IMG/VR virus record: IMGVR_UViG_3300034170_000016
Coordinates: 1-41,739 of that record
DNA from: a virus
Length of the DNA: 41,739 nucleotides
Strand: one strand, 5' to 3'
Shown: piece after piece, positions 1,920 to 41,420 of the stretch
How positions within the stretch are numbered: position 1 is the stretch's first letter
Layout of the letters: every line of letters begins with the position of its first letter
The notes under the pieces: generated by a model
Told to the model about the DNA's origin: nothing
What the model saw: only the letters and a program-made list of their open reading frames with translations
Database searches by the model: none
Program-made: the position numbers and the translations under genes

Positions 1920-2689
1920 GGTGCGCCGTCCATGAAGTACATTGCTGCCTCGTGGCTGATAACGCCCTGCTCTGCAAGCAAGCATATGCCAAAGTGCAGT
2001 TTGCGGATGTGCTCTTGCAGTTGCGCAACGGTTGGCGGGGTTTCAACCTCAACGAACCCAGGTGCCAGGTCTGCGGCGGTTGGCGGGGTAGCGCCCAGTT
2101 TGCTATGGCACGTAGCGTGACCGGCGCAGCAGAAATCACCAGGCAGGGCAGCGGCAGGGCAGTCAAACACATTGCACTTGGGTGCTGCTGCAAAGCTCAC
2201 CGGACCGCCGTCGGGCTGACTGTGTGCGTTGCAATATTTTGAGTGTTTCGTTTTCGGCGCACCGCAGCACTTCACCGCGCATGGTGCTGGTGCTGGTGCT
2301 GGTGCTGGTGCTGGTGCTGGTGCTGGTGCTGGTGCTGGTGCTGGTGCTGGTGCTGGTGCTGGTGCTGGTGCTGGTGCTGGTTCGTCGTTCTCAATGGTCG
2401 GCGCGTGGAAGTCACCAGATACCCAGCCAGCAGGCAGCGCGGGGGCAACGGTGCAGTACTCGGCAGCACGCTCTAATATTTCGTCCTCGTAGGGTTCGCA
2501 ATGCACACTTAGCATAGGCGTGATCCACGGCACCATTACGCCAATATGCTTGCGTTGGATCACGCCGTTTTCTACAGTGGGTTTGAACCTGCGTAAGCGA
2601 ACCCTGTTACCCCCTGCGTCGTAGGTTGCCCAGTGGTAAGCGTCGCCAGCGCCATCAAACACAGCTTGCGTCAATACTCGGTTCGTCAT
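1916..2689 (-). CDS. Cys-rich protein with long Ala-Pro linker (257 aa)
   Basis: The protein has three parts. Residues 1-100 form a globular-looking N-terminus (MTNRVLTQAVFDG...). Next comes an uninterrupted Ala-Pro stretch coded by 16 perfect GGTGCT repeats (plus-strand view). The C-terminal part has cysteine/histidine clusters (CCGAP...KYCNAH, CNVFDCPAA...FCCAGH) that suggest one or two zinc sites, followed by an acidic tail. Ala-Pro linkers are stiff spacers that hold domains apart. The start overlaps the helicase stop (ACATGAC), so it is translated with the helicase. I do not recognise the family. It may tether the helicase or VRR nuclease to DNA or a partner, but this is only suggested by position. 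Confidence 0.7.
   Translation of the reverse strand: MTNRVLTQAVFDGAGDAYHWATYDAGGNRVRLRRFKPTVENGVIQRKHIGVMVPWITPMLSVHCEPYEDEILERAAEYCTVAPALPAGWVSGDFHAPTIENDEPAPAPAPAPAPAPAPAPAPAPAPAPAPAPAPAPCAVKCCGAPKTKHSKYCNAHSQPDGGPVSFAAAPKCNVFDCPAAALPGDFCCAGHATCHSKLGATPPTAADLAPGFVEVETPPTVAQLQEHIRKLHFGICLLAEQGVISHEAAMYFMDGAP
2283..2378. repeat. Hexanucleotide microsatellite (GGTGCT)16
   Basis: Sixteen perfect tandem GGTGCT units inside the gene at 1916-2689, read on the coding strand as AGCACC and translated as Ala-Pro repeats. Because the unit is 6 bp, slippage changes linker length without breaking the frame. Confidence 0.95.
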
Positions 2690-4452
2690 GTTACTTGCTC
2701 CATTGGTGGTTTTGGTACGTCTTCGGGGAATGGTAGACCGTTAATTACTGCACCGGCAAGCAATACTTTTTGCGTGACGCGGGTTAACAGTTCCTCGGCT
2801 TCGGGTCGCCCCAGGGAGAACGCCGACAGTACGTCGAGCTTGAAGGTGTGGAAGAACCGACGTTCCCGCGTCTGGTCGTCTTCCTTGGCGTACAGGCCCG
2901 CCCAGCAGGCAATAGCATGCCGCAGGTTCTGTTGTGCCCGGTTGCGTTGAGTGTGCGCGCGGATGATGCTTGCCTCGGCCGGCGTACCCTTCTGGTCCTT
3001 ACCGACGTAACAGGCACCCATGAGCTGCCCAGCGCCCTTGCGCATGGCTTCCAGTATCTCGGGTGACAACAGGTGCAGGTCGCCGTCAATGAGCTTTGGC
3101 GATCCGCGCAACGTTGGGTCAGGCGGCGGCTGTACGCGGCGGCAGTATGGGCATGTGACTTTGATCCGTTCGAACGGCTTGTGGCAGAACGCACACGAGC
3201 GCAGCGGTATAGCGTCAGACTGTCCACCGCCCCGAGCACGGCGAGCCAATGACCACACGCGGTCCTTATCTGGTGGACCCAGGTGGCGCAGCAGGTTGCC
3301 GACGTGGTCAATAATGATCGCTTTCGGCTTGCCGCTGGCTGCGATGAACGCCAGGCGCTGGGCTGGCGTGTAGGTGTCCCATGCAGCTTGCAGTATTGGG
3401 CTGATCATCAGGCGCAGTGCGCGTCCCCACTGCTGGTAGAACAGCGACAGCGACGCGGTGGGCCTGGCCATGCTCACGACCTCAATGGCCGGTAGGTCGA
3501 ACCCTTCGCCGAACAGGTCAACGTTCACCAACTGCAGCAGTTGCCGGTTCTCGAAACGCTCCAGGGCACTGCGTCGCTGGTCCGGCGTGCTCAAGCTGCT
3601 TACGACTTCGGCCGGCACGCCTGCTGCGTTGAACGCAGCAGCTATCTTGTTGGCTTCCTCAATGTTGGCCGCGAAGGTAATGCCCAGCTTTCCGCGTGCA
3701 TGCTCCAGATAATGGCGCACCACGTCGCCAATAATTTGCGGGTTCTTCTTTAACAGCTCCGCAATCTGTACGTCGCTCAGTTCCCCGTTGCTGGTGGTCT
3801 TGACCTTGCCGAAGTCCAGGCCCGCGACCTCGGGGCAGAACACGTCATAGTCCGTTAAGAACCCGTTGTCGATCATCCAGCGCATGCCCGGGCCTTCGAT
3901 CATCATGTCGACGATACCGTCGAATGAGCGACCCAGGCCGGCGCCGTCGGCGCGGATCGGCGTGGCAGTCAGCAGCAGGCCCAGGCAGGTTGCCGAGAAC
4001 ATGTTGAACACCTTCCCCCACTTGTTGGCGCGCAGGGCGTGGTGCCCTTCGTCCTCAATAGCAAGGGTGGATTTTTTAAAGTGTTCCTCGTTCGGTCGCT
4101 TTATAATGGTGTCGACGCTGGCAACGGCCCACTCGGTGCGACCCTTCTGGTTCAACCAGCTACGGTCAAACTTTTTATAGTGGTCGCGCTGGATGGCCGA
4201 CACGGTTGCGTCGCTACCAATGATCTTGTGAATAATCCCTTCGCTTGCCAGGCTGCGGGAAATTTGACTGACCAGCTCGTGACGGTGTGCAATAGCGCAA
4301 CCCCACCCATCGTGGTGAATTGCGACGTCGCCCATCACGACCGTTTTTCCCGCGCCGGTAGGAAGCACACCCATGGCCACGCGGTACCCTTCCTCCCATG
4401 CCGCACGTATACCGGCGTTAAGCTCCCGCTGGTATCCCCGTAAATTCGCCAT
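2686..4452 (-). CDS. SF2 DEAH-box DNA helicase with zinc finger (588 aa)
   Basis: A superfamily 2 ATP-dependent helicase of the phage UvsW/RecG-like DEAD/DEAH type. Motifs: Q-like YQREL (7-11), motif I PTGAGKT (31-37), motif II DEGH (134-137), motif III LTATPIR (161-167), motif V VDLFGEGFDLP (311-321) and motif VI QQWGRALR (340-347). After the two RecA-like lobes comes a four-cysteine finger (Cys420, 423, 434, 437) and a helical C-terminus. It is the first gene of the leftward operon; the intergenic region to the divergent replication genes is only 89 bp. GGGGA precedes the ATG. It probably unwinds or remodels phage DNA during replication or recombination. The same operon carries a VRR-NUC nuclease. 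Confidence 0.9.
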   Translation of the reverse strand: MANLRGYQRELNAGIRAAWEEGYRVAMGVLPTGAGKTVVMGDVAIHHDGWGCAIAHRHELVSQISRSLASEGIIHKIIGSDATVSAIQRDHYKKFDRSWLNQKGRTEWAVASVDTIIKRPNEEHFKKSTLAIEDEGHHALRANKWGKVFNMFSATCLGLLLTATPIRADGAGLGRSFDGIVDMMIEGPGMRWMIDNGFLTDYDVFCPEVAGLDFGKVKTTSNGELSDVQIAELLKKNPQIIGDVVRHYLEHARGKLGITFAANIEEANKIAAAFNAAGVPAEVVSSLSTPDQRRSALERFENRQLLQLVNVDLFGEGFDLPAIEVVSMARPTASLSLFYQQWGRALRLMISPILQAAWDTYTPAQRLAFIAASGKPKAIIIDHVGNLLRHLGPPDKDRVWSLARRARGGGQSDAIPLRSCAFCHKPFERIKVTCPYCRRVQPPPDPTLRGSPKLIDGDLHLLSPEILEAMRKGAGQLMGACYVGKDQKGTPAEASIIRAHTQRNRAQQNLRHAIACWAGLYAKEDDQTRERRFFHTFKLDVLSAFSLGRPEAEELLTRVTQKVLLAGAVINGLPFPEDVPKPPMEQVT

Positions 4453-7643: not shown

Positions 7644-9674
7644 ATGGGCTCATATTCCCAAGGTCCGCTTGACATTGAATGCTACCGCAATTATTTCCTC
7701 GTAAAGACGCTCGACCCCGCCACCAACGTTTTCACTGACTTCGAAATGTTCCCGGGTCAGTGCATGAATGTGCTTGCTCTGCGCATGCACCTAGCCACCC
7801 GCACCATCTACACTTTCAACGGTAACAACTACGACGTGCCGATGCTGGCGGCGTTCCTGCACGAGTGCAACGTAAACGGGGCGCCGCACGACTACGCGAC
7901 CAGCCGCGACTTGTGCTTGAAAATGAAAGCCTACAACGACGCCATTATTGTCGGGCGCCTGCGGAGCTGGACGTTCTACAAGCAATACGGAATCGAGGAA
8001 CTGACGTGGCTCAAGCACGTCGACATTATCGAGGTGGCGCCAGGGGTCAAGATTGGCCTCAAGATGTACATGGGTCGCATGCACAGTCACACGCTGCAAG
8101 ACTTGCCGATTGACCCGGCCGGCGAAGTGCTGCCCGAGCAGCGGGCGCCGATGCGGATGTACTGCGGCAATGACTTGATCGGCACCTGGCAACTCGTGCA
8201 GGTGTGCGAGGAAAAGGGGCGCCTGCCGCTGCGCAGGCAGATCGGCGAACAGTACGGCATTGATGTCATGTCGAAGTCGGACGCCCAAATCGCCGAAAGC
8301 GTGATAAAGGCCGAACTACCATTCCGGCCTGACAAGGTGGTTTACCCCCACGGCTACCAGTTCCACTACCAGGCGCCACCGTTCATTCGCTTCGAAACGG
8401 AGCAGATGCGCCAACTGTTGGCCACGATTCTGACTACACCTTTCACCGTCAACGATGTCGATCAGCTCAAGACGAATGACGACGATGTGGTCTACGACAT
8501 TGACGGCAACAAGGTCAAAACAGGGATCATCATTCCGCCCGAAATTGCAGGCACCGATATCAGGATTGGGAGCAGTTGCTACCGCGTCGGGATCGGCGGC
8601 TTGCACAGCAGCGAGAAGTCCGTGTGGTATCAGACGGTCCCGGGTATGTGGAGCATTGACGACTTCGACGTTGGCAGCTATTACCCGTCTCTGATCCTGC
8701 TGATGAACATGTTTCCCAAGGCAATCGGCGAGGCGTTCATTGCGATATACCGCAAGATATACACGCAGCGCCTGGCAGCAAAGGCGAAGGCTGGGGCGGC
8801 AGCAGGCGCGATTAAAGAACTACAAAAGCGCCAGCACACCAGCGAGGAATACCAGGCGCTAAAAGGCGAGGTCAAACACTGGAAGTCGGTGGCCGACGGT
8901 CTGAAAATTACGCTCAACGGTGCGTTTGGCAAACTGGGTTCCAAGTACTCAATCCTGTTCGCCCCCGAGCTGCTGATCCGCACCACCATCACAGGCCAGC
9001 TAGCCCTACTCATGCTGATCGAAGCGCTTGAGGTGCGGGGCATTCCAGTCGTATCGGCCAACACCGACGGCATTATCTTGAAGACGCCAGCCGGCATGGA
9101 AGCGTTCCGCGACAGCGTGATTAAGTGGTGGGAGCAAGAGACGGGCCTTGAAATGGAACAGACGCCGTACACCGCCATTTTCAACCGCGACGTGAATAAT
9201 TACATTGCCTTCAAGCCCGACGGATCGCACAAGGCCAAGGGTTGCTTTGGCGAGGCTGGGGTATCGCCGGACGCCAGCCCGAGCGGCAAGCACCCTGACA
9301 ACGAGATATGCGCCGACGCGGTGATTGCGTACCTGGGTCACGGCACGCCGCTATTCACGACCATTCGCCAGTGTCAGGACATTCGCAAGTTTGTCACGGT
9401 GCAGCAGGTCACGGGTGGGGCTGTCTACGAGCGCACAGGCGAGTACCTGGGCAAAGCGGTACGCTGGTATCACGCGAAGGGGTCCACGCACTGCCTGCGC
9501 TACGCCAAGCCGCGCCAGGGGCAGACCATCGGCAACAAGGTGCCGAACAGCGACGGGGTGGCGCCGTGCATGACACTCCCCGACGTGCTGCCGGCCGATA
9601 TTGATTACAGCTACTACGAGCGCGAGGCGTACCGGATGCTGTTGGACCTGGGGGTGTTGACAGCCCGTAAATAA
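7644..9674 (+). CDS. Family B DNA polymerase (676 aa)
   Basis: Replicative polymerase with an N-terminal 3'-5' exonuclease: Exo I LDIE (9-12), Exo II FNGNNYD (58-64), Exo III YCGND (173-177). The polymerase domain has motif A DFDVGSYYPS (340-349), motif B LKITLNGAFGKLGS (420-433) and motif C SANTDGI (471-477). Motif C differs from the usual DTD: the first Asp is Asn, but the metal-binding second Asp (475) is kept. The chain is short for family B, and Exo I lies only 10 residues from the start, so no long N-terminal domain is present. GAGG precedes the ATG. Its final codons CGT AAA TAA form part of the operator-like motif of promoter P3. Confidence 0.9.
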   Translation: MGSYSQGPLDIECYRNYFLVKTLDPATNVFTDFEMFPGQCMNVLALRMHLATRTIYTFNGNNYDVPMLAAFLHECNVNGAPHDYATSRDLCLKMKAYNDAIIVGRLRSWTFYKQYGIEELTWLKHVDIIEVAPGVKIGLKMYMGRMHSHTLQDLPIDPAGEVLPEQRAPMRMYCGNDLIGTWQLVQVCEEKGRLPLRRQIGEQYGIDVMSKSDAQIAESVIKAELPFRPDKVVYPHGYQFHYQAPPFIRFETEQMRQLLATILTTPFTVNDVDQLKTNDDDVVYDIDGNKVKTGIIIPPEIAGTDIRIGSSCYRVGIGGLHSSEKSVWYQTVPGMWSIDDFDVGSYYPSLILLMNMFPKAIGEAFIAIYRKIYTQRLAAKAKAGAAAGAIKELQKRQHTSEEYQALKGEVKHWKSVADGLKITLNGAFGKLGSKYSILFAPELLIRTTITGQLALLMLIEALEVRGIPVVSANTDGIILKTPAGMEAFRDSVIKWWEQETGLEMEQTPYTAIFNRDVNNYIAFKPDGSHKAKGCFGEAGVSPDASPSGKHPDNEICADAVIAYLGHGTPLFTTIRQCQDIRKFVTVQQVTGGAVYERTGEYLGKAVRWYHAKGSTHCLRYAKPRQGQTIGNKVPNSDGVAPCMTLPDVLPADIDYSYYEREAYRMLLDLGVLTARK

Positions 9675-15611: not shown

Positions 15612-15948
15612 TGACTGTAACCTCGCCCAAAGTGGATTGCAGGGTTGCAGTGTACGTCAAGTTGTCTTCGACCTGCACCACTTCAAACGCGCTGACAGAT
15701 GTGACGGTAGGCACCTGCCCAAGCGTGTCCCGCACTGCCGCCTCAAACTGCACCTCGTTCGGCTCACCCATCCAGGCCACGAGGTCGTAAGGGATACCAT
15801 TGTCTGCGTTGGTGACCATTTCGCCGCGTCGAGCTTTGACGAATTGCACAGACGTTTGCCCGAGCGCATCCAGGCCCGAGAATATGGCGAGCTGCCCGTC
15901 ATCCCCAACCACAAAATCGTTGCCTTTGGTTACCTGTAGCGTTCTCAT
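15604..15948 (-). CDS. gp25-like baseplate wedge protein (114 aa)
   Basis: A 114-residue protein in the position of T4 gp25 and P2 gpW. It includes VKARRGEMVTNADNGIPYD and a C-terminal beta segment. gp25 proteins seed sheath polymerisation through a LysM-like fold and pair with the J-like protein, which is the next gene. The ATG at 15948 is embedded in the stop of the spike gene (GTATGAG). The longer upstream in-frame extension overlaps the spike and is not used. Confidence 0.75.
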   Translation of the reverse strand: MRTLQVTKGNDFVVGDDGQLAIFSGLDALGQTSVQFVKARRGEMVTNADNGIPYDLVAWMGEPNEVQFEAAVRDTLGQVPTVTSVSAFEVVQVEDNLTYTATLQSTLGEVTVSG

Positions 15949-16619: not shown

Positions 16620-17443
16620 AGCCGGGTTGCCAATGCGGTGTACCAGAAGGGCGGCTCATGCGACGCAATTTCGAACCCGAGCTGGGTTATAACGTAGTCG
16701 CCGTTTGCAGCCGGGTTGATTTGGCTTTCAAGTCGAAGCCCGCCGCCCAGCACCGTTTCACTGTCAACGGTGAAAGTTACCTTTAACCCCTTTTCGGTAG
16801 GCTTCGGGATACCCACCATACCTGTGCGCTTGTTGAGTACGCGCAAGCGGCCTGTGAGCGGCGCCAAGGCATTCTTAACCACCAACTTGCCGTCGTCAAT
16901 GTAGGCACTCACACCGCCCGCCTGCTGCAGCTTGTCGACCTCCTTGAGTGCTGTTCCTGTGTGACCGTAGTTACCGATGTTCTTATCGTCCGCTTGGAAG
17001 TCGAGCGCGAGCCCCAGGTCGTCGGCGGTGGCCTTAGCAATGTTCGATAGCTTGCTCTGCGCCGGGGCCGACTTGGCAACGATCTTACCGCTCTTGGTGT
17101 TGCCGGTTAGCGCGCGAATAGTCAAGGCGATATCGGGCGGCGCCGAAGGCTCGGCCGACACAATGTCGCCCACGAATATACGAGTGAGCCCGGTGCCGAC
17201 ACGACCAGCCTCAACGATCAGGCGTTTTGGGTTCGGGTTGGTGTTAAACGGGCTGGCCTCGGTGACGATGTAGTCGCGTGTTTCACGCTTCAAGTTTTGG
17301 ATCGTCACGTTGCAGTCATTCTGGAGCGGGTTGGCGTACTTGGTGCCGGCCACCTTTACGCGTAACCCTTCGTACCATTTGATTTGCCCACTGACCTCAA
17401 TGCCTACGCGCACGCGCCGCAAGTCAAGCTGATTATCAGCCAT
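16616..17443 (-). CDS. Baseplate hub protein (275 aa)
   Basis: Central hub protein of the T4 gp27/gpD type. It has features of phage hub proteins: an N-terminal RVRVGIEVSGQIKWYEGLRV segment, IFVGDIVSAEPS, and a central AKATADDLGLALDF. The C-terminus holds LRLESQINPAANGDYVITQLG, as seen in hubs of simple contractile tails. A GGAG site lies before the ATG at 17443; an upstream ATG at 17491 falls inside the previous gene and lacks a site. It carries the spike encoded next. Confidence 0.8.
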   Translation of the reverse strand: MADNQLDLRRVRVGIEVSGQIKWYEGLRVKVAGTKYANPLQNDCNVTIQNLKRETRDYIVTEASPFNTNPNPKRLIVEAGRVGTGLTRIFVGDIVSAEPSAPPDIALTIRALTGNTKSGKIVAKSAPAQSKLSNIAKATADDLGLALDFQADDKNIGNYGHTGTALKEVDKLQQAGGVSAYIDDGKLVVKNALAPLTGRLRVLNKRTGMVGIPKPTEKGLKVTFTVDSETVLGGGLRLESQINPAANGDYVITQLGFEIASHEPPFWYTALATRL

Positions 17444-19827: not shown

Positions 19828-20374
19828 TACCGCCCCTTATTTTTCGCGTAGTCTGCTGCCAGCTTTTCGTTATACCGATTGGTTACAACGATTTCCCACA
19901 GGTTCATCGCCGTTTCTAAGTCTATTTCTCGGTCGAGTTCAGTTTGGCGCGCAAGTCCCGCACTAAGGATGGCGGCAAAGAATCCGTCAGCGTTTGGATA
20001 ATCAACGGAAGGTGCGTCTTGATTAAACTTGCGAAGAAAGTCGACCCCCTTCCTTGTCCGAAAAAACTGGTGTTGTACTCCAGCATGGCCCACTCCAGGC
20101 GCAACAGTTGCTCACCCGTGATCACATGGGAGTTAATCAGGCTTTCGGTGCTCAGCGGCTGCATGCGCCCGTCATCGCCAATACCAACAGACACGTAACT
20201 CATGAGCGTCAGCATAATTTCCTTGCTGACGTTGTACTCGCCGAGCTTTGGAATGTTACTAACCGGGTACTTGGCCATCACCTCGCGCATCGGGATAGCC
20301 GGCAGCTTCGACAGGAAGAACTCTTTTTCCCCGCCGTCGCCGTCTTTGATGGTTACTGCCTTTGGCTTGATCAT
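19827..20374 (-). CDS. Tail assembly chaperone, long -1 frameshift product (about 182 aa)
   Basis: The 150-residue ORF (start 20374) and a second ORF in the -1 frame (ending 19827) overlap. At 20066-20060 the minus strand reads T TTT TTC in the zero frame of the first ORF, an exact X XXY YYZ slippery heptamer. Slippage gives residues 1-105 of the short form followed by 77 residues (RTRKGVDFLRKFNQD...) ending NEKLAADYAKNKGR. This is the gpG/gpGT arrangement of lambda-type and many contractile-tail phages, directly before the tape measure. The long form would guide tube polymerisation around the tape measure and be lost from the virion. Confidence 0.85.
19922..20374 (-). CDS. Tail assembly chaperone, short form (150 aa)
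   Basis: Zero-frame product encoded between tube and tape measure. It is mainly helical, with LPAIPMREVMAKYPVSNIPKL-type N-terminal and LLRLEWAMLEYNTSFF just before the slippage site. The short form is expected to be made in excess over the frameshifted form, as for lambda gpG. The ATG overlaps the tube stop (GTATGATC). The 45 residues after the slippage site are also translated in this form. Confidence 0.85.
   Translation of the reverse strand: MIKPKAVTIKDGDGGEKEFFLSKLPAIPMREVMAKYPVSNIPKLGEYNVSKEIMLTLMSYVSVGIGDDGRMQPLSTESLINSHVITGEQLLRLEWAMLEYNTSFFGQGRGSTFFASLIKTHLPLIIQTLTDSLPPSLVRDLRAKLNSTEK
20060..20066 (-). other. Programmed -1 ribosomal frameshift site T TTT TTC
   Basis: Reading on the minus strand, AGT TTT TTC GGA in frame 0. 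Both tRNAs re-pair perfectly at the first two positions after a one-base slip, and the -1 frame stays open to 19827. G-rich sequence (GGAAGGGGG) follows 4-12 bases downstream, which may help pausing. Confidence 0.85.
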
Positions 20375-33354: not shown

Positions 33355-33384
33355 ATCGTACCGTTATTTACTGTCCTTCATCAA
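33355..33384 (-). promoter_or_regulatory. Motif-bearing promoter (P5)
   Basis: TTGATG (33384-33379), 18-bp spacer with CAGTAAATAACGG (33372-33360), then TACGAT (33360-33355). The small terminase stop TAA is part of the motif. Confidence 0.55.
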
Positions 33385-34137
33385 GAGCTGATATGCCTTG
33401 GCCGCTTCGATTGGATCGGTTGGCAGTGTTGCGATCACATCACCATCTTTTGGCGTCACGTCCAGCACGCGTTCCGTAAACATACCCAGCGCCCGTGCGA
33501 TGTTGGTACGAGCATCGTCCTGGCTGTTGGTCATGATCTGGATACCGTGCTGCGTCTGCTTAATGCCCGCGTACAGCCGGCGCCCCTGGCGCGTCAGTTT
33601 AGTCGTGTCGTGGATGTAGACGGTGCCAATACCCTCGCCCCGGCACTTGCGGCACTCTGGGTGCGGACGCTTCGTGAAGTCGAACCCAACGCCTCCCAGG
33701 TTCTCGGGCAGCGCCATGCGGTCCTTTGGCTTGGCGCGTGCGTTGCTGTCGATGCGCTCGGCCTGGACGTATGCAAATTCTTCCTCGTCGATGTACTGAT
33801 AGTGGTGACCACGGCCCCAGCAGTACCGGCAGCATCGACGCTGGTGGCTTGTCAGTTCGTTCGGGTCAGCCGTTGCGATATCCACCCAATGCTGCATGAC
33901 ATCTTGAATGCCCATCATGAGCTGTTTGTCGCTGCCAGCACGCAGCTTATCCAACGCAGCTTTAACCGCTGGCTTGTTTTTCAATCGCCACGCTGCGCCT
34001 TTAACCGTCTGGTCTGATTTCTTGCTGCAATCGTAACTCTTGCGATATGCGTCTGTTGCGTCGTCAGAAATGAAAAATAGCTCTGTAAATTTCTTCTGGT
34101 TCTCCGACAATCCCGCAAAAATAGCTTTCTTACTCAT
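33364..34137 (-). CDS. Terminase small subunit with zinc motif (257 aa)
   Basis: The N-terminal region LSENQKKFTELFFISDDATDAYRKSY (9-34) and GAAWRLKNKPAVKAALDKL is the DNA-binding domain of the Terminase_2 family. The middle carries a Cys/His cluster (CCRYCWGRGHH, then HPECRKCRGEG), a DnaJ-like double zinc motif found in part of that family. The helical C-terminus is for oligomerisation and large-subunit contact. The ATG at 34137 has GAGG upstream; a GTG two codons earlier is less likely. The gene lies beside the repeat-rich non-coding region, where a packaging site could be. Confidence 0.85.
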   Translation of the reverse strand: MSKKAIFAGLSENQKKFTELFFISDDATDAYRKSYDCSKKSDQTVKGAAWRLKNKPAVKAALDKLRAGSDKQLMMGIQDVMQHWVDIATADPNELTSHQRRCCRYCWGRGHHYQYIDEEEFAYVQAERIDSNARAKPKDRMALPENLGGVGFDFTKRPHPECRKCRGEGIGTVYIHDTTKLTRQGRRLYAGIKQTQHGIQIMTNSQDDARTNIARALGMFTERVLDVTPKDGDVIATLPTDPIEAAKAYQLLMKDSK

Positions 34138-34143
34138 GACCAC

Positions 34144-34463
34144 GCCTCACAGCTAAAAAGGTTACAGAAGCCGAAAATGTTTGTAACCCCATTTACCCCA
34201 ACAAAATCAAGCACTTAGCACTCGGGTTACAAGGTTACAAGTTTGTTAAAACCATTACGGCATAATATAAAAAACATTCTGTGTCGTATCATCACCCCAC
34301 CACCTCATACCTCTATTTCTTTTTCTGCTCGTACATACGGTATATCTTTTATTTGTAACCTTGTAACCTTTAGAGAAGAAAGAGTAAGAAAATCAGGGGT
34401 TTAGCAGGGTTACAAGTGGTCGCCGGTTTGTAACGGTTTGTGACCCCTTGTAACCTTTTTTAC
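34144..34463. other. AT-rich non-coding region with GGTTACAA iterons
   Basis: The only non-coding stretch longer than 300 bp. The 8-mer GGTTACAA or its complement occurs seven times exactly: 34181-34188, 34225-34232, 34233-34240, 34353-34360, 34361-34368, 34408-34415 and 34448-34455. Three more sites have one mismatch (34160, 34428, 34438). Two tandem pairs point toward each other (34225-34240 and 34353-34368) around a 112-bp core with A/T tracts. This could be an origin of replication with a DNA-unwinding region, a binding site for the adjacent small terminase (pac), or an operator. No ORF of note lies in it. Confidence 0.75.
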
Positions 34464-37085
34464 CTACTGCCCCAGCAACCGCAACTGCTGCTCTTTCTTG
34501 CTCATGTCCAGCAGCATGCGGATGCCCTCGTTGCTTGCGTTGCCCAGCTCCCCACGCTTCCACCAAATGCGATGCGTCTTCCCGTCCCACTTGAGCACTG
34601 TGTCCATCTGCGAGAAACCCATGCGACTCAACATGTGGTTGAGCGTGTTCGTCTTCGGTATCTCGATCCCGTCCTGCACACAGACGGTCTTCATAGCCGC
34701 TGTCAGCGCGCTGGAGCTTAAAACGGACGGATGTACACCCACGGCCCCGCCTTCGATAATTTGACGCGCCACGGCCTCAGCAGCGTCTTCGCCGCTGCTG
34801 CGCATTTCGATCTTCTCGGCAGTATGTGGTGCACCAGCGTTTGGACGAAATGCTTCGCTGACTTGATACTCGGTGAGGAATTTGCGCCACTCGCCGCGCT
34901 GCGCATTCATGCTGGCAAAGATCAAATCAAAATGCGCAACAAGTTGTTCGGCTGACATGCCCAACGCGCTGCGTAATGACTGGATGCTGCTATAGGGGGA
35001 AAAGATCACCCACCAGCGACGGTCGCTGTCTTCAAGCGGCACCGCGTCCACAAAGTTCGTGAAGGCAAGATAGTTGGTAACGTTTACGATGTTGCGTGCA
35101 AAGGTCGTACCCTTCCGGTTGATAGACAGCCGGTCGTTACTGATCGGCTCCTTGAGGTTGTTGGCCACGCTGTAACGCTTGCGCCCGGTGATCATGATTT
35201 CCTCAAAGCCTGTGACGCACGTACCTTCTGCCCAGTCGTTAAAGTCAGCGCACAGCAGCGCCGGCCCAATACTGCCCACGTTGGTGTCACCCATGGCAGC
35301 ACGAAGCGCACTCACCAGCATTGACTTGCCGTCACCCTGGCAACCTTTGAGCAGTGGCGCATAACGCACCTTGCGCCCGGGGTTCTGCACGCACCAGGCC
35401 AGGAAGTCGATAAAGTTGGTGTACACCTCGGGCCGGTTGCCGCAGAACGCCTGGATGTGACGTAGGAAGGCGTTAATGCCGTCCAGGCCAGGTTGGGTGT
35501 AGTGCTGGGCAACCTCGGGCAAGTTGGTCGGGCTGTAGGTGTTAGCCAGCCACCGTGCCTCTTGGCGGAACACGGGCTGCTCCCCGGGCATGTACATGCT
35601 GTCTGTCACGGTAGCAACGTTCCAACGTTCCAGGCACCACTTGGCTGCGTCCTCGCGATCACCGTTCGGGCGCTGGGGCATCATGCGGTTGTACTGGGCA
35701 TTGAACCCCACACGCGAAAGCATGCTAGCCGACTTGAGGTCGAAGAACGCATCGGCCGCGAGCACGTACACATGCTGGTTGGCCCACTCGGGCACCATCG
35801 GCGCGTCGTCGGCTTCCACCTTGCGCACCCGTACCATTTCCCGGCAATCGCTGATAGACACGGGGAACAGCCATTCCTTGAAGCGCGTGCGGATCGCACT
35901 GGCCAGGAAGTCGCGGTCAAGGGTTTCAATGCTGGCGTCGTGCGCGATTGCCGGTATCACCTCGTTGCGCATCTGCGCGTCGTCCTCGGCTTCGTTGATC
36001 AACTGCAGGTACTGGGCGCGGGTGGTCGATGCCTGGATGGTGGTGGCGACTTGCAGCACCTGTTGCACGGGTGCGTCCTGCAGTACGTTGGATTGGCGCG
36101 GGAGCATTTCGCGGATTGATAGCTGCAGCCACGTTTCGTTCCCCCGGCGCTCGTACCACTTCGGCCGCACAAGGGACGACTGCAGCATGAGGCGTTCAAT
36201 ACGTGCCGCGTCGCACCCAGTCCAGAACGCAAGCTGTGCGATCAACGCTGCGTCGGCTTCGGATTCGCCATACGGCGCGCCCTTGGTCCCGGTGTCGGTG
36301 TACGTCTTGGCCAACACGGCTACGTTGCGGGTCCACAGGTCAGCGAACGATGCTGAGCCGGTAAGCGCACTTCGACCGCCACGACTTGCCATGGCGCGGC
36401 GGATCAACTCACCGTCGTCGGTGGGGCCGTTCCAGTCGGCGCGCGGACCGTCACCCAGGTGCGTGCCTGGCGCGAGCGCGTCGCGGGGGAAGATGTCCAG
36501 CACCATGCGTTGAACCGCAAGCGTGTGGTCAGTATCGGCGTTGCCCCAGGCTTGGCCAGTGAGCCCCAGGCACGCACCGCGCTTCCCGCTGTAGAACTCC
36601 CATTTGTTACCAGGGTTCGCGGCGAGCCATTCGCGCGTTGGGCGCGTGCGGTGTTCTTCTGGCACCTGACCACGGCCAAAGAAGTGCAAGCCGCGACCGC
36701 TGGAACTGTACTCACAGAACGCACCCGGCAGCTCGTTGTAGAACTTGACGGCCTGGGCGGTCCAAGTGGTCTGGTCTTCGCTCACGCACTCGTCACCGTC
36801 GAGGAACCAGTAACCACAGCCCTCGGTGAACATGAACCCCAGCGCGTACTTGGCGCCGTCAAATGCGGCTTGGTGCAGTGCCAGGTCCATGACGGCCTGA
36901 TCGTATGTGCGCCAGGCTTCGGGCACCTGGGCGTCCATGCCAGCTATGCGGCCGGTTTCAGGATCAAGACGGCGATCAGGCCAGATGGGCACTTTGTGGT
37001 ATTTGCGTTCGGCGGCAACCCAAGTCAGGCGCCATACGAACCATTGAGGGGCGGCGGTCATACCCGCCAGTGCTGTTCTAAGCAT
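34464..37085 (-). CDS. PrimPol-SF3 helicase replication protein (873 aa)
   Basis: A fused primase-polymerase/helicase of the NrS-1/D5 type. N-terminal PrimPol: PQWFVWRL (13-20), metal-binding FLDGDE (94-99; Asp96, Asp98) and SSSGRGLHFFG (127-137), the S-x-H-type nucleotide motif. A helical bundle follows (SEADAALIAQLAFWTGC, then SLVRPKWYERRG), as in NrS-1-like proteins. The C-terminal SF3 helicase has Walker A GCQGDGKS (581-588), VTGFEEI and DSDRRWWVI with a likely arginine finger. It may start DNA synthesis for the family B polymerase. The start is uncertain: 37085 or 37061 (MTAAPQWF), neither with a strong site. It ends beside the iteron region. Confidence 0.85.
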   Translation of the reverse strand: MLRTALAGMTAAPQWFVWRLTWVAAERKYHKVPIWPDRRLDPETGRIAGMDAQVPEAWRTYDQAVMDLALHQAAFDGAKYALGFMFTEGCGYWFLDGDECVSEDQTTWTAQAVKFYNELPGAFCEYSSSGRGLHFFGRGQVPEEHRTRPTREWLAANPGNKWEFYSGKRGACLGLTGQAWGNADTDHTLAVQRMVLDIFPRDALAPGTHLGDGPRADWNGPTDDGELIRRAMASRGGRSALTGSASFADLWTRNVAVLAKTYTDTGTKGAPYGESEADAALIAQLAFWTGCDAARIERLMLQSSLVRPKWYERRGNETWLQLSIREMLPRQSNVLQDAPVQQVLQVATTIQASTTRAQYLQLINEAEDDAQMRNEVIPAIAHDASIETLDRDFLASAIRTRFKEWLFPVSISDCREMVRVRKVEADDAPMVPEWANQHVYVLAADAFFDLKSASMLSRVGFNAQYNRMMPQRPNGDREDAAKWCLERWNVATVTDSMYMPGEQPVFRQEARWLANTYSPTNLPEVAQHYTQPGLDGINAFLRHIQAFCGNRPEVYTNFIDFLAWCVQNPGRKVRYAPLLKGCQGDGKSMLVSALRAAMGDTNVGSIGPALLCADFNDWAEGTCVTGFEEIMITGRKRYSVANNLKEPISNDRLSINRKGTTFARNIVNVTNYLAFTNFVDAVPLEDSDRRWWVIFSPYSSIQSLRSALGMSAEQLVAHFDLIFASMNAQRGEWRKFLTEYQVSEAFRPNAGAPHTAEKIEMRSSGEDAAEAVARQIIEGGAVGVHPSVLSSSALTAAMKTVCVQDGIEIPKTNTLNHMLSRMGFSQMDTVLKWDGKTHRIWWKRGELGNASNEGIRMLLDMSKKEQQLRLLGQ

Positions 37086-40886: not shown

Positions 40887-40915
40887 ATACTATGCCGTTA
40901 TTTACGGTACGTCAA
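40887..40915 (-). promoter_or_regulatory. Promoter with CCGTAAATAACGG in the spacer (P7)
   Basis: TTGACG (40915-40910), 17-bp spacer with CCGTAAATAACGG (40907-40895), TAGTAT (40892-40887), then the leader GCAACCAACACGGAG. The stop TAA of the ParB-like gene lies in the motif. Confidence 0.8.
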
Positions 40916-41420
40916 CACCGTCATAAATGGCGTCAATCTGTCGCATGATATTTTTGATTGGCAACGCCCACTCTTGATCCGTTACGTGGATTCCTGCGTC
41001 TTCGAGTGCGTCGAACAATTCGCACCACAGTGCCTCTGTCGGCCTGCTCACCTTCGGCTTGGTGGTCGCTGCGGTCACCTTTGACTTACCGGCAGCTTGA
41101 GCCGTGGCCAACTGATCCTTGAGCACGCTGCCTGCTGCGTCGCCATGCTTGCGCACTGTTTCGGCTGCAATGGTAGGGCTCACAGCTTTTGCCTGCACCA
41201 TTGCATGCACGTCAGTGTTACCGCCCGCCAGGTCGAGGATCATCTTGACATGCGCCGTTGGCTTGCCAAGAAGCTCGGCAATCTGCGCAGGCGTCCATTT
41301 GAACGCCAACAACTGGGTGTACACCGCGCACAACTCAACAGCGCTCAACGCCTGGATGGCTTCGCCGCGCTTGGTGTCGCCGTCTAGGCGCATTTGTTTG
41401 AACGATTTAATGGCTGTCAT
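40902..41420 (-). CDS. KorB/ParB-like HTH DNA-binding protein (172 aa)
   Basis: Residues 40-66 (FKWTPAQIAELLGKPTAHVKMILDLA) form the HTH of ParB/KorB-type proteins, and the following helices (DVHAMVQAKAVSPTIAAETVRKHG, 70-93) match the second half of that domain. The N-terminal ParB nuclease/CTPase domain is missing; only 40 residues precede the HTH. The C-terminal part (TEALWCELFDALEDAGIHVTD) is a helical domain, possibly for dimerisation. It may bind phage sites for regulation or segregation. Its stop is inside the P7 motif. Confidence 0.7.
   Translation of the reverse strand: MTAIKSFKQMRLDGDTKRGEAIQALSAVELCAVYTQLLAFKWTPAQIAELLGKPTAHVKMILDLAGGNTDVHAMVQAKAVSPTIAAETVRKHGDAAGSVLKDQLATAQAAGKSKVTAATTKPKVSRPTEALWCELFDALEDAGIHVTDQEWALPIKNIMRQIDAIYDGVDVP

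Follow-up and report, generated by a model that had tools for sequence, protein, structure and literature searches.

Iterons directly downstream of an NrS-1-type PrimPol gene form a probable PICI/SaPI-like replication origin in a tailed phage

In the window, the whole 41,739-nucleotide stretch of viral DNA analysed here, an array of short iterons lies directly 3' of a gene for an NrS-1-type PrimPol-helicase. This array is very probably a phage replication origin of the PICI/SaPI kind, carried by a tailed phage, and its most likely reader is the C-terminal end of the adjacent PrimPol. The data favour such an origin read by PrimPol and oppose a pac site read by the small terminase (TerS).

Between 34160 and 34455 there are seven exact GGTTACAA sites, at 34181(-), 34225(+), 34233(+), 34353(-), 34361(-), 34408(+) and 34448(-), and three with one mismatch, at 34160(+), 34428(-) and 34438(-), where chance would provide about one exact copy per 41.7 kb. 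Exact copies outside the array occur only at 19881 and 37267 in the whole 41.7 kb, and whole-window shuffles contain a mean of 0.97 copies and at most 3; the repeat cluster reported by the first-pass annotation is confirmed, far above shuffled sequence. In a 500-bp segment that spans the PrimPol stop and extends 3' of it, the commonest 7-mer has 8 copies, a count matched by 0/100 dinucleotide shuffles. The canonical form of the window iteron, read by eye, is AGGTTACAAG. The two tandem pairs around an AT-rich core that had been proposed earlier are present at 34225-34240 and 34353-34368, and together form a perfect 16-bp inverted repeat with a spacing of 112 bp; a third cluster, arm A, lies 39 bp away from pair B. 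The AT content is 61% in the array region, 65% in the B-C core and 64% in the A-B gap, against 42% in the window. PrimPol and TerS do flank the array as had been described, with the refinement that 34464 is the PrimPol stop, which places the array 3' of the PrimPol gene and 5' of terS. The elements of the array are:

34160-34455, no strand assigned: iteron array, putative origin; GGTTACAA sites, family consensus about AGGTNNCARG
34408-34455, minus strand: arm A, with sites at 34448-34455(-), 34438-34445(-, one mismatch), 34428-34435(-, one mismatch) and 34408-34415(+)
34369-34407, no strand assigned: A-B gap, 39 bp, 64% AT; candidate DNA-unwinding element
34353-34368, minus strand: tandem pair B, two iterons with a period of 8 bp
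34241-34352, no strand assigned: B-C core, 112 bp, 65% AT; second candidate melting region
34225-34240, plus strand: tandem pair C, inverted relative to pair B (perfect 16-bp inverted repeat)
34160-34188, no strand assigned: outer sites, 34181-34188(-) and 34160-34167(+, one mismatch)

The GC-skew profile has no clear switch at the array and is uninformative, and promoter and terminator scans gave chance-level results only. Elsewhere in the window, eight ACCAGCACCA repeats are packed into less than 100 bp at 2282-2375, probably a repetitive coding segment.

The genes that bear on the origin are:

34464-37085, minus strand: PrimPol-helicase, 873 aa; AEP primase-polymerase, NrS-1-type HBD (274-334), DUF5906/D5-like helicase and C-terminal part
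34467-34985, minus strand: PrimPol residues 701-873, proposed iteron-reading domain; 754-759 and 829-837 track iteron type
33364-34143, minus strand: small terminase (Terminase_2), neighbour; not a likely reader of the array
7644-9674, plus strand: phage DNA polymerase (phrog_1252), likely elongating polymerase

The PrimPol-helicase matches DNA-primase PHROGs, the NrS-1 polymerase HBD (PF22763, 2.6e-18) and PF19263 (DUF5906, 1.1e-11), and so has the make-up of an NrS-1-type PrimPol, an AEP plus an NrS-1 HBD plus a D5/DUF5906 helicase; its primase domain is of the AEP type and not of the Toprim (DnaG) type. A profile built from 44 relatives and searched against the PDB matched NrS-1 polymerase over both the N-terminal half (1e-32) and the helicase (1.9e-28), and matched 7ola, a 797-aa primase-helicase that we take to be the SaPI5 PriRep1 protein, over the primase half (E 3.8e-40); the match of its ATPase to the 7ola chain was weak (i-Evalue 22). 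A Pfam search of the C-terminal part returned no credible domain, and a 1e-3 match to a fungal-virus capsid fell below the cut-off and was discarded. The NrS-1 tail domain PF22762 was found in NrS-1 only, not in the window protein.

The arrangement recurs. Related loci were collected from IMG/VR and phage relatives by tblastn (>250 bits, n = 93), alignment queries having recovered relatives where a single-protein scan of viral contigs found none, and arrays were called from exact 7-mer counts in a 500-bp segment that takes in the primase stop and the DNA 3' of it (shuffle p <= 0.01). By this test an array lies directly 3' of the primase-helicase stop in 67/93 loci, irrespective of the next gene, and the remaining 26 have no significant array by a count of exact 7-mers, which misses degenerate repeats; among more distant loci the array is significant in 3/28. 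The array count was attained in 27/1,379 control tiles drawn from the array-bearing loci, and at least five copies were found in 2/82 upstream regions. The gene that follows the array varies (TerS, endolysin, HNH and others): Silvanus has the primase, then the array, then an endolysin, and phage Chi has a GGTTACAA array (L012:5845-6124) one small HTH gene after the primase. The Salmonella phage Chi PrimPol is only about 20% identical to that of the window. In BPP-1 (L170, NC_005357), inverted tandem pairs of TTGCCTCGT surround an AT-rich stretch between about +467 and +570 relative to the bbp29 stop, and a stem-loop 3' of the replication protein has been described there (PMC4234260). The layout is not universal for AEP-helicases, since among NrS-1-like primases PS6 has an array and KP1 and ctUnS216 do not, and a distant clade (Scuro, SppYZU01, MSW-3, Susan, LAPP1) has none.

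Several loci have peculiarities of their own. Edwardsiella phage MSW-3 contains 14 copies of ACCTGCGCG (L008:7083-7421) and eight of CGGAAGTACC (L008:99-255), neither adjoining the primase stop. The Psp6 primase (L003:5995-8537) is split into two overlapping ORFs by an apparent frameshift, from sequencing or real, and GATAGAGA/TCTCTATC motifs are repeated shortly before its terS (L003:9415-9810), a distinct cluster with a possible role in packaging or regulation. In the close relative L023, the region 3' of PrimPol (stop 8622) is dominated by AAATTCA, repeated over a long stretch mostly on one strand, which sets this locus apart from the other members of the clade.

The layout of the array is conserved in the order arm A, a gap of about 39 bp, tandem pair B, an AT-rich core of about 92 bp and inverted pair C. 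Counted from the PrimPol stop, arm A lies at about +4 to +59 and pair B near +91/+98 in close relatives (+96/+104 in the window), with C, an inverted pair or triple, near +199 to +244. In 39/52 non-redundant arrays pair B can be made out together with a neighbour on each side, and in these 39 the neighbours are oriented opposite to pair B in 71/78 cases, with median gaps of 39 bp (A-B) and 92 bp (B-C); of all spacings, the A-B gap varies least from relative to relative. The AT fraction reaches its maximum of 0.72 right before pair B, compared with 0.47 for the loci overall. The iteron sequence itself turns over among relatives, with AGGTAACAGG, AGGTCCCAAG, AGGTCACAAG, ACCATACAAG and others among the strings read by eye.

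This turnover follows one part of one protein. In a Mantel test of iteron distance against protein distance over ten close relatives, the iterons track PrimPol residues 701-873 (r = 0.63, p = 0.0004), a boundary picked after segments beyond 700 looked different and hence only an approximate domain edge. They track neither residues 1-700 (r = -0.23) nor TerS (r = -0.12, p = 0.79), which serves as a linkage control because it begins just past the array. The same is seen in individual pairs with different iterons: L026, with the iteron GGTAACA, and L019, with GGTCCCA, are 97% identical over 1-700 and 77% over 701-873, L098 and L018 97% and 79%, and, in a second clade, L053 and L044 96% and 77%. 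Pairs with switched iterons stand at 0.907 over the N-terminal and 0.761 over the C-terminal part, and pairs with the same iteron at 0.944 and 0.969. The differences between L098 and L018 are concentrated at -590 to +292 around the PrimPol stop, a segment in which L098 matches L019, with which it shares its iteron; the TerS proteins of L098 and L019, however, are nearly identical too (99%). The columns that best track the iteron core (727, 754, 759, 829, 830, 837 and 869) all fall within 701-873 (7/7), a region holding 71/312 of the variable columns. These comparisons of sequence point to the C-terminal part of PrimPol as the reader of the iterons. The adjacent C-terminal codons and the array could be swapped jointly through linkage alone, but this is disfavoured by TerS, equally close on the other side and without covariation, although only 10 loci were compared. 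Of the two options given by the first-pass annotation, the origin recognised by an initiator is thus supported, both by the position of the array after the PrimPol gene and by the covariation with the PrimPol C-terminal part.

Other uses of the repeats can be weighed against the same observations. If the array were an operator or partition site, the repeats would be bound by a phage protein of the HTH or ParB-like type that regulates transcription or segregation, and the small HTH gene adjoining the array in Chi, as well as the ParB-like proteins of the window (40902-41420, phrog_1033) and of Psp6, where the gene is also annotated as ParB-like, would suit this. However, the constant neighbour of the array is the 3' end of PrimPol and not an HTH or ParB-like gene, the iteron type changes together with the C-terminal part of PrimPol, and the Pfam domain ParB_N was not found in the window, so that we judge the ParB reading weak and an operator or partition site altogether very improbable.

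Pac sites are often in or near terS, and in the window terS starts at 34143, directly past the array. The two are adjacent in the window subclade and in NrS-1, as would be expected of a pac or cos recognition site at which TerS binds the iterons and packaging starts. Against this, window-type TerS homologues adjoin the array only in the window subclade (at about +308 to +345); in Psp6 TerS is about 1.3 kb away, in Curvibacter PCA1 about 4.7 kb, and in Silvanus, where the match is weak, it lies at the opposite end of the record, and many array loci have no TerS found within 6 kb by tblastn, by which diverged TerS can be missed. Outside that one subclade and NrS-1 the array and TerS are unlinked, and in the ten close relatives their divergences are uncorrelated, so the pac option put forward earlier is not supported, and we regard it as more improbable still. 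The least probable alternative is a structural origin of the pRN1 type, in which the stem-loop of the inverted pairs matters and not the iteron sequence: pairs B and C could make a 16-bp stem closing a 112-nt loop, the single strand folds better than shuffles (z = -2.9, 4/200), and in pRN1 the origin is a stem-loop located 3' of the AEP-helicase gene (PMC4234260), but the single-orientation arm copies and the phasing at 7, 8 and 12 bp are more than a stem requires, and the sequence of the repeats changes in step with a protein domain.

The phage NrS-1 itself (AB746912) carries 11 exact copies of GTTACACTT directly 3' of the polymerase gene, at 17062-17377, and the top 7-mer there has 13 copies, compared with at most 5 in shuffles (n = 200). 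NrS-1 and the window share the AEP, HBD and helicase homology, the order PrimPol, array, TerS, TerL, and the common iteron core GGTTACA. They differ in that the NrS-1 iteron is GGTTACACTTT and that TTTGGTTA, the priming motif of NrS-1 polymerase (PMC8718748), occurs at an iteron junction in NrS-1. In the NrS-1 record we find this motif once, at 17198-17205 on the minus strand, within the array at a tandem junction; two genomic copies have been reported and suggested as a possible origin (PMC7102993). An identity of the window iteron with the NrS-1 priming motif was rejected, as TTTGGTTA is absent from the window array and has a single chance-level copy in the window, at 15925. The NrS-1 array (L171:4562-4878, equal to AB746912 17061-17377) lies under NRS1_29, an annotated hypothetical ORF and perhaps a spurious one. 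The word "repeat" is absent from PMC7102993 and PMC8718748 and "iteron" from PMC8718748, and the original 2017 description may mention the array. For NrS-1, with the best-studied primer-free polymerase, the array would offer an origin previously guessed from motif copies (PMC7102993).

How such an origin would work can be proposed from its parts. The C-terminal domain of the PrimPol-helicase (about 701-873) would bind the iterons as double-stranded DNA, and copies bound to the opposed clusters A/B and B/C would join helicase hexamers across the AT-rich gaps, which would melt. The ring helicases would then load themselves onto the opened strands and unwind outward, the N-terminal AEP/HBD half would prime the exposed template, and elongation would fall to the phage DNA polymerase (7644-9674), to PrimPol or to both. 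What the sequences show directly is the array, its conserved position and layout, and its covariation with the C-terminal part of PrimPol alone; binding, melting, helicase loading and priming we infer from homology to the Rep proteins of SaPIs and PICIs, to Cch2 and to the polymerase of NrS-1. The enclosure of TTTGGTTA in the NrS-1 array suggests a more speculative idea, which we hold only tentatively and think rather doubtful: that in phages with NrS-1-type PrimPols the origin is read twice by the same polypeptide, whose C-terminal domain reads duplex iterons for helicase loading and whose HBD/AEP half starts primer-free synthesis on the melted repeats. On this view the C-terminal domain and the array would be an exchangeable specificity cassette with a fast turnover of its code, for instance under origin-directed nuclease attack or incompatibility. 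With this natural set of initiator tails and matching iterons, the recognition code can be tested directly in vitro.

Several known replicons resemble the window in part. The alpha protein of phage P4, a single polypeptide that binds ori repeats, unwinds and primes (as described in PMC4234260), resembles our proposal, but its primase is of the Toprim type and that of the window of the AEP type. ORF904 of pRN1 likewise joins an AEP to a helicase (SF3, with a C-terminal winged helix) and has its origin 3' of the gene (PMC4234260); that origin is a stem-loop without iterons, whereas the window has a possible long stem plus iterons. In the PLE of Vibrio cholerae, the initiator DNA-binding domain and the iterons covary and swap as a module, although the initiator is of the RepA_N type and the semi-palindromic iterons are about 30 bp long (PMC8263062). 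SCCmec Cch2 is a proposed self-loading D5-type helicase whose C-terminal domain binds short repeats just downstream, at a putative origin, but it has three AAGTG iterons, a separate A-family primase and a staphylococcal cassette as its host element (PMC7581432).

The closest likeness is to PICIs and SaPIs. The PICI ori consists of two iteron sets around an AT-rich region directly 3' of rep (PMC6092414), and the C-terminal domains of SaPI Rep and Cch2 recognise such iterons, which for SaPI Rep lie directly downstream of the gene (PMC7581432). The window shares the pri-rep-ori arrangement (PMC6092414; PMC7581432, citing Ubeda et al. 2007), in which opposed sets of short iterons enclose AT-rich DNA, and these sets stand directly 3' of the gene for the initiator helicase, which is sometimes fused to the primase, and may be followed by terS. 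The window initiator is moreover homologous to the primase-helicase of SaPI5, insofar as 7ola is presumably that protein. The differences lie in the NrS-1-type PrimPol, in the three-cluster layout and in the kind of element: these are tailed phages with capsid, tail and DNA polymerase of their own and not satellites, and the window carries capsid, portal, sheath, baseplate and polymerase genes, as befits no phage-inducible satellite, along with a contractile tail, an exonuclease and a second helicase (2686-4452). To judge from its sequence, the window array would thus work like a PICI origin in a phage that is not a PICI, and this PICI-like organisation recurs in dozens of tailed phages.
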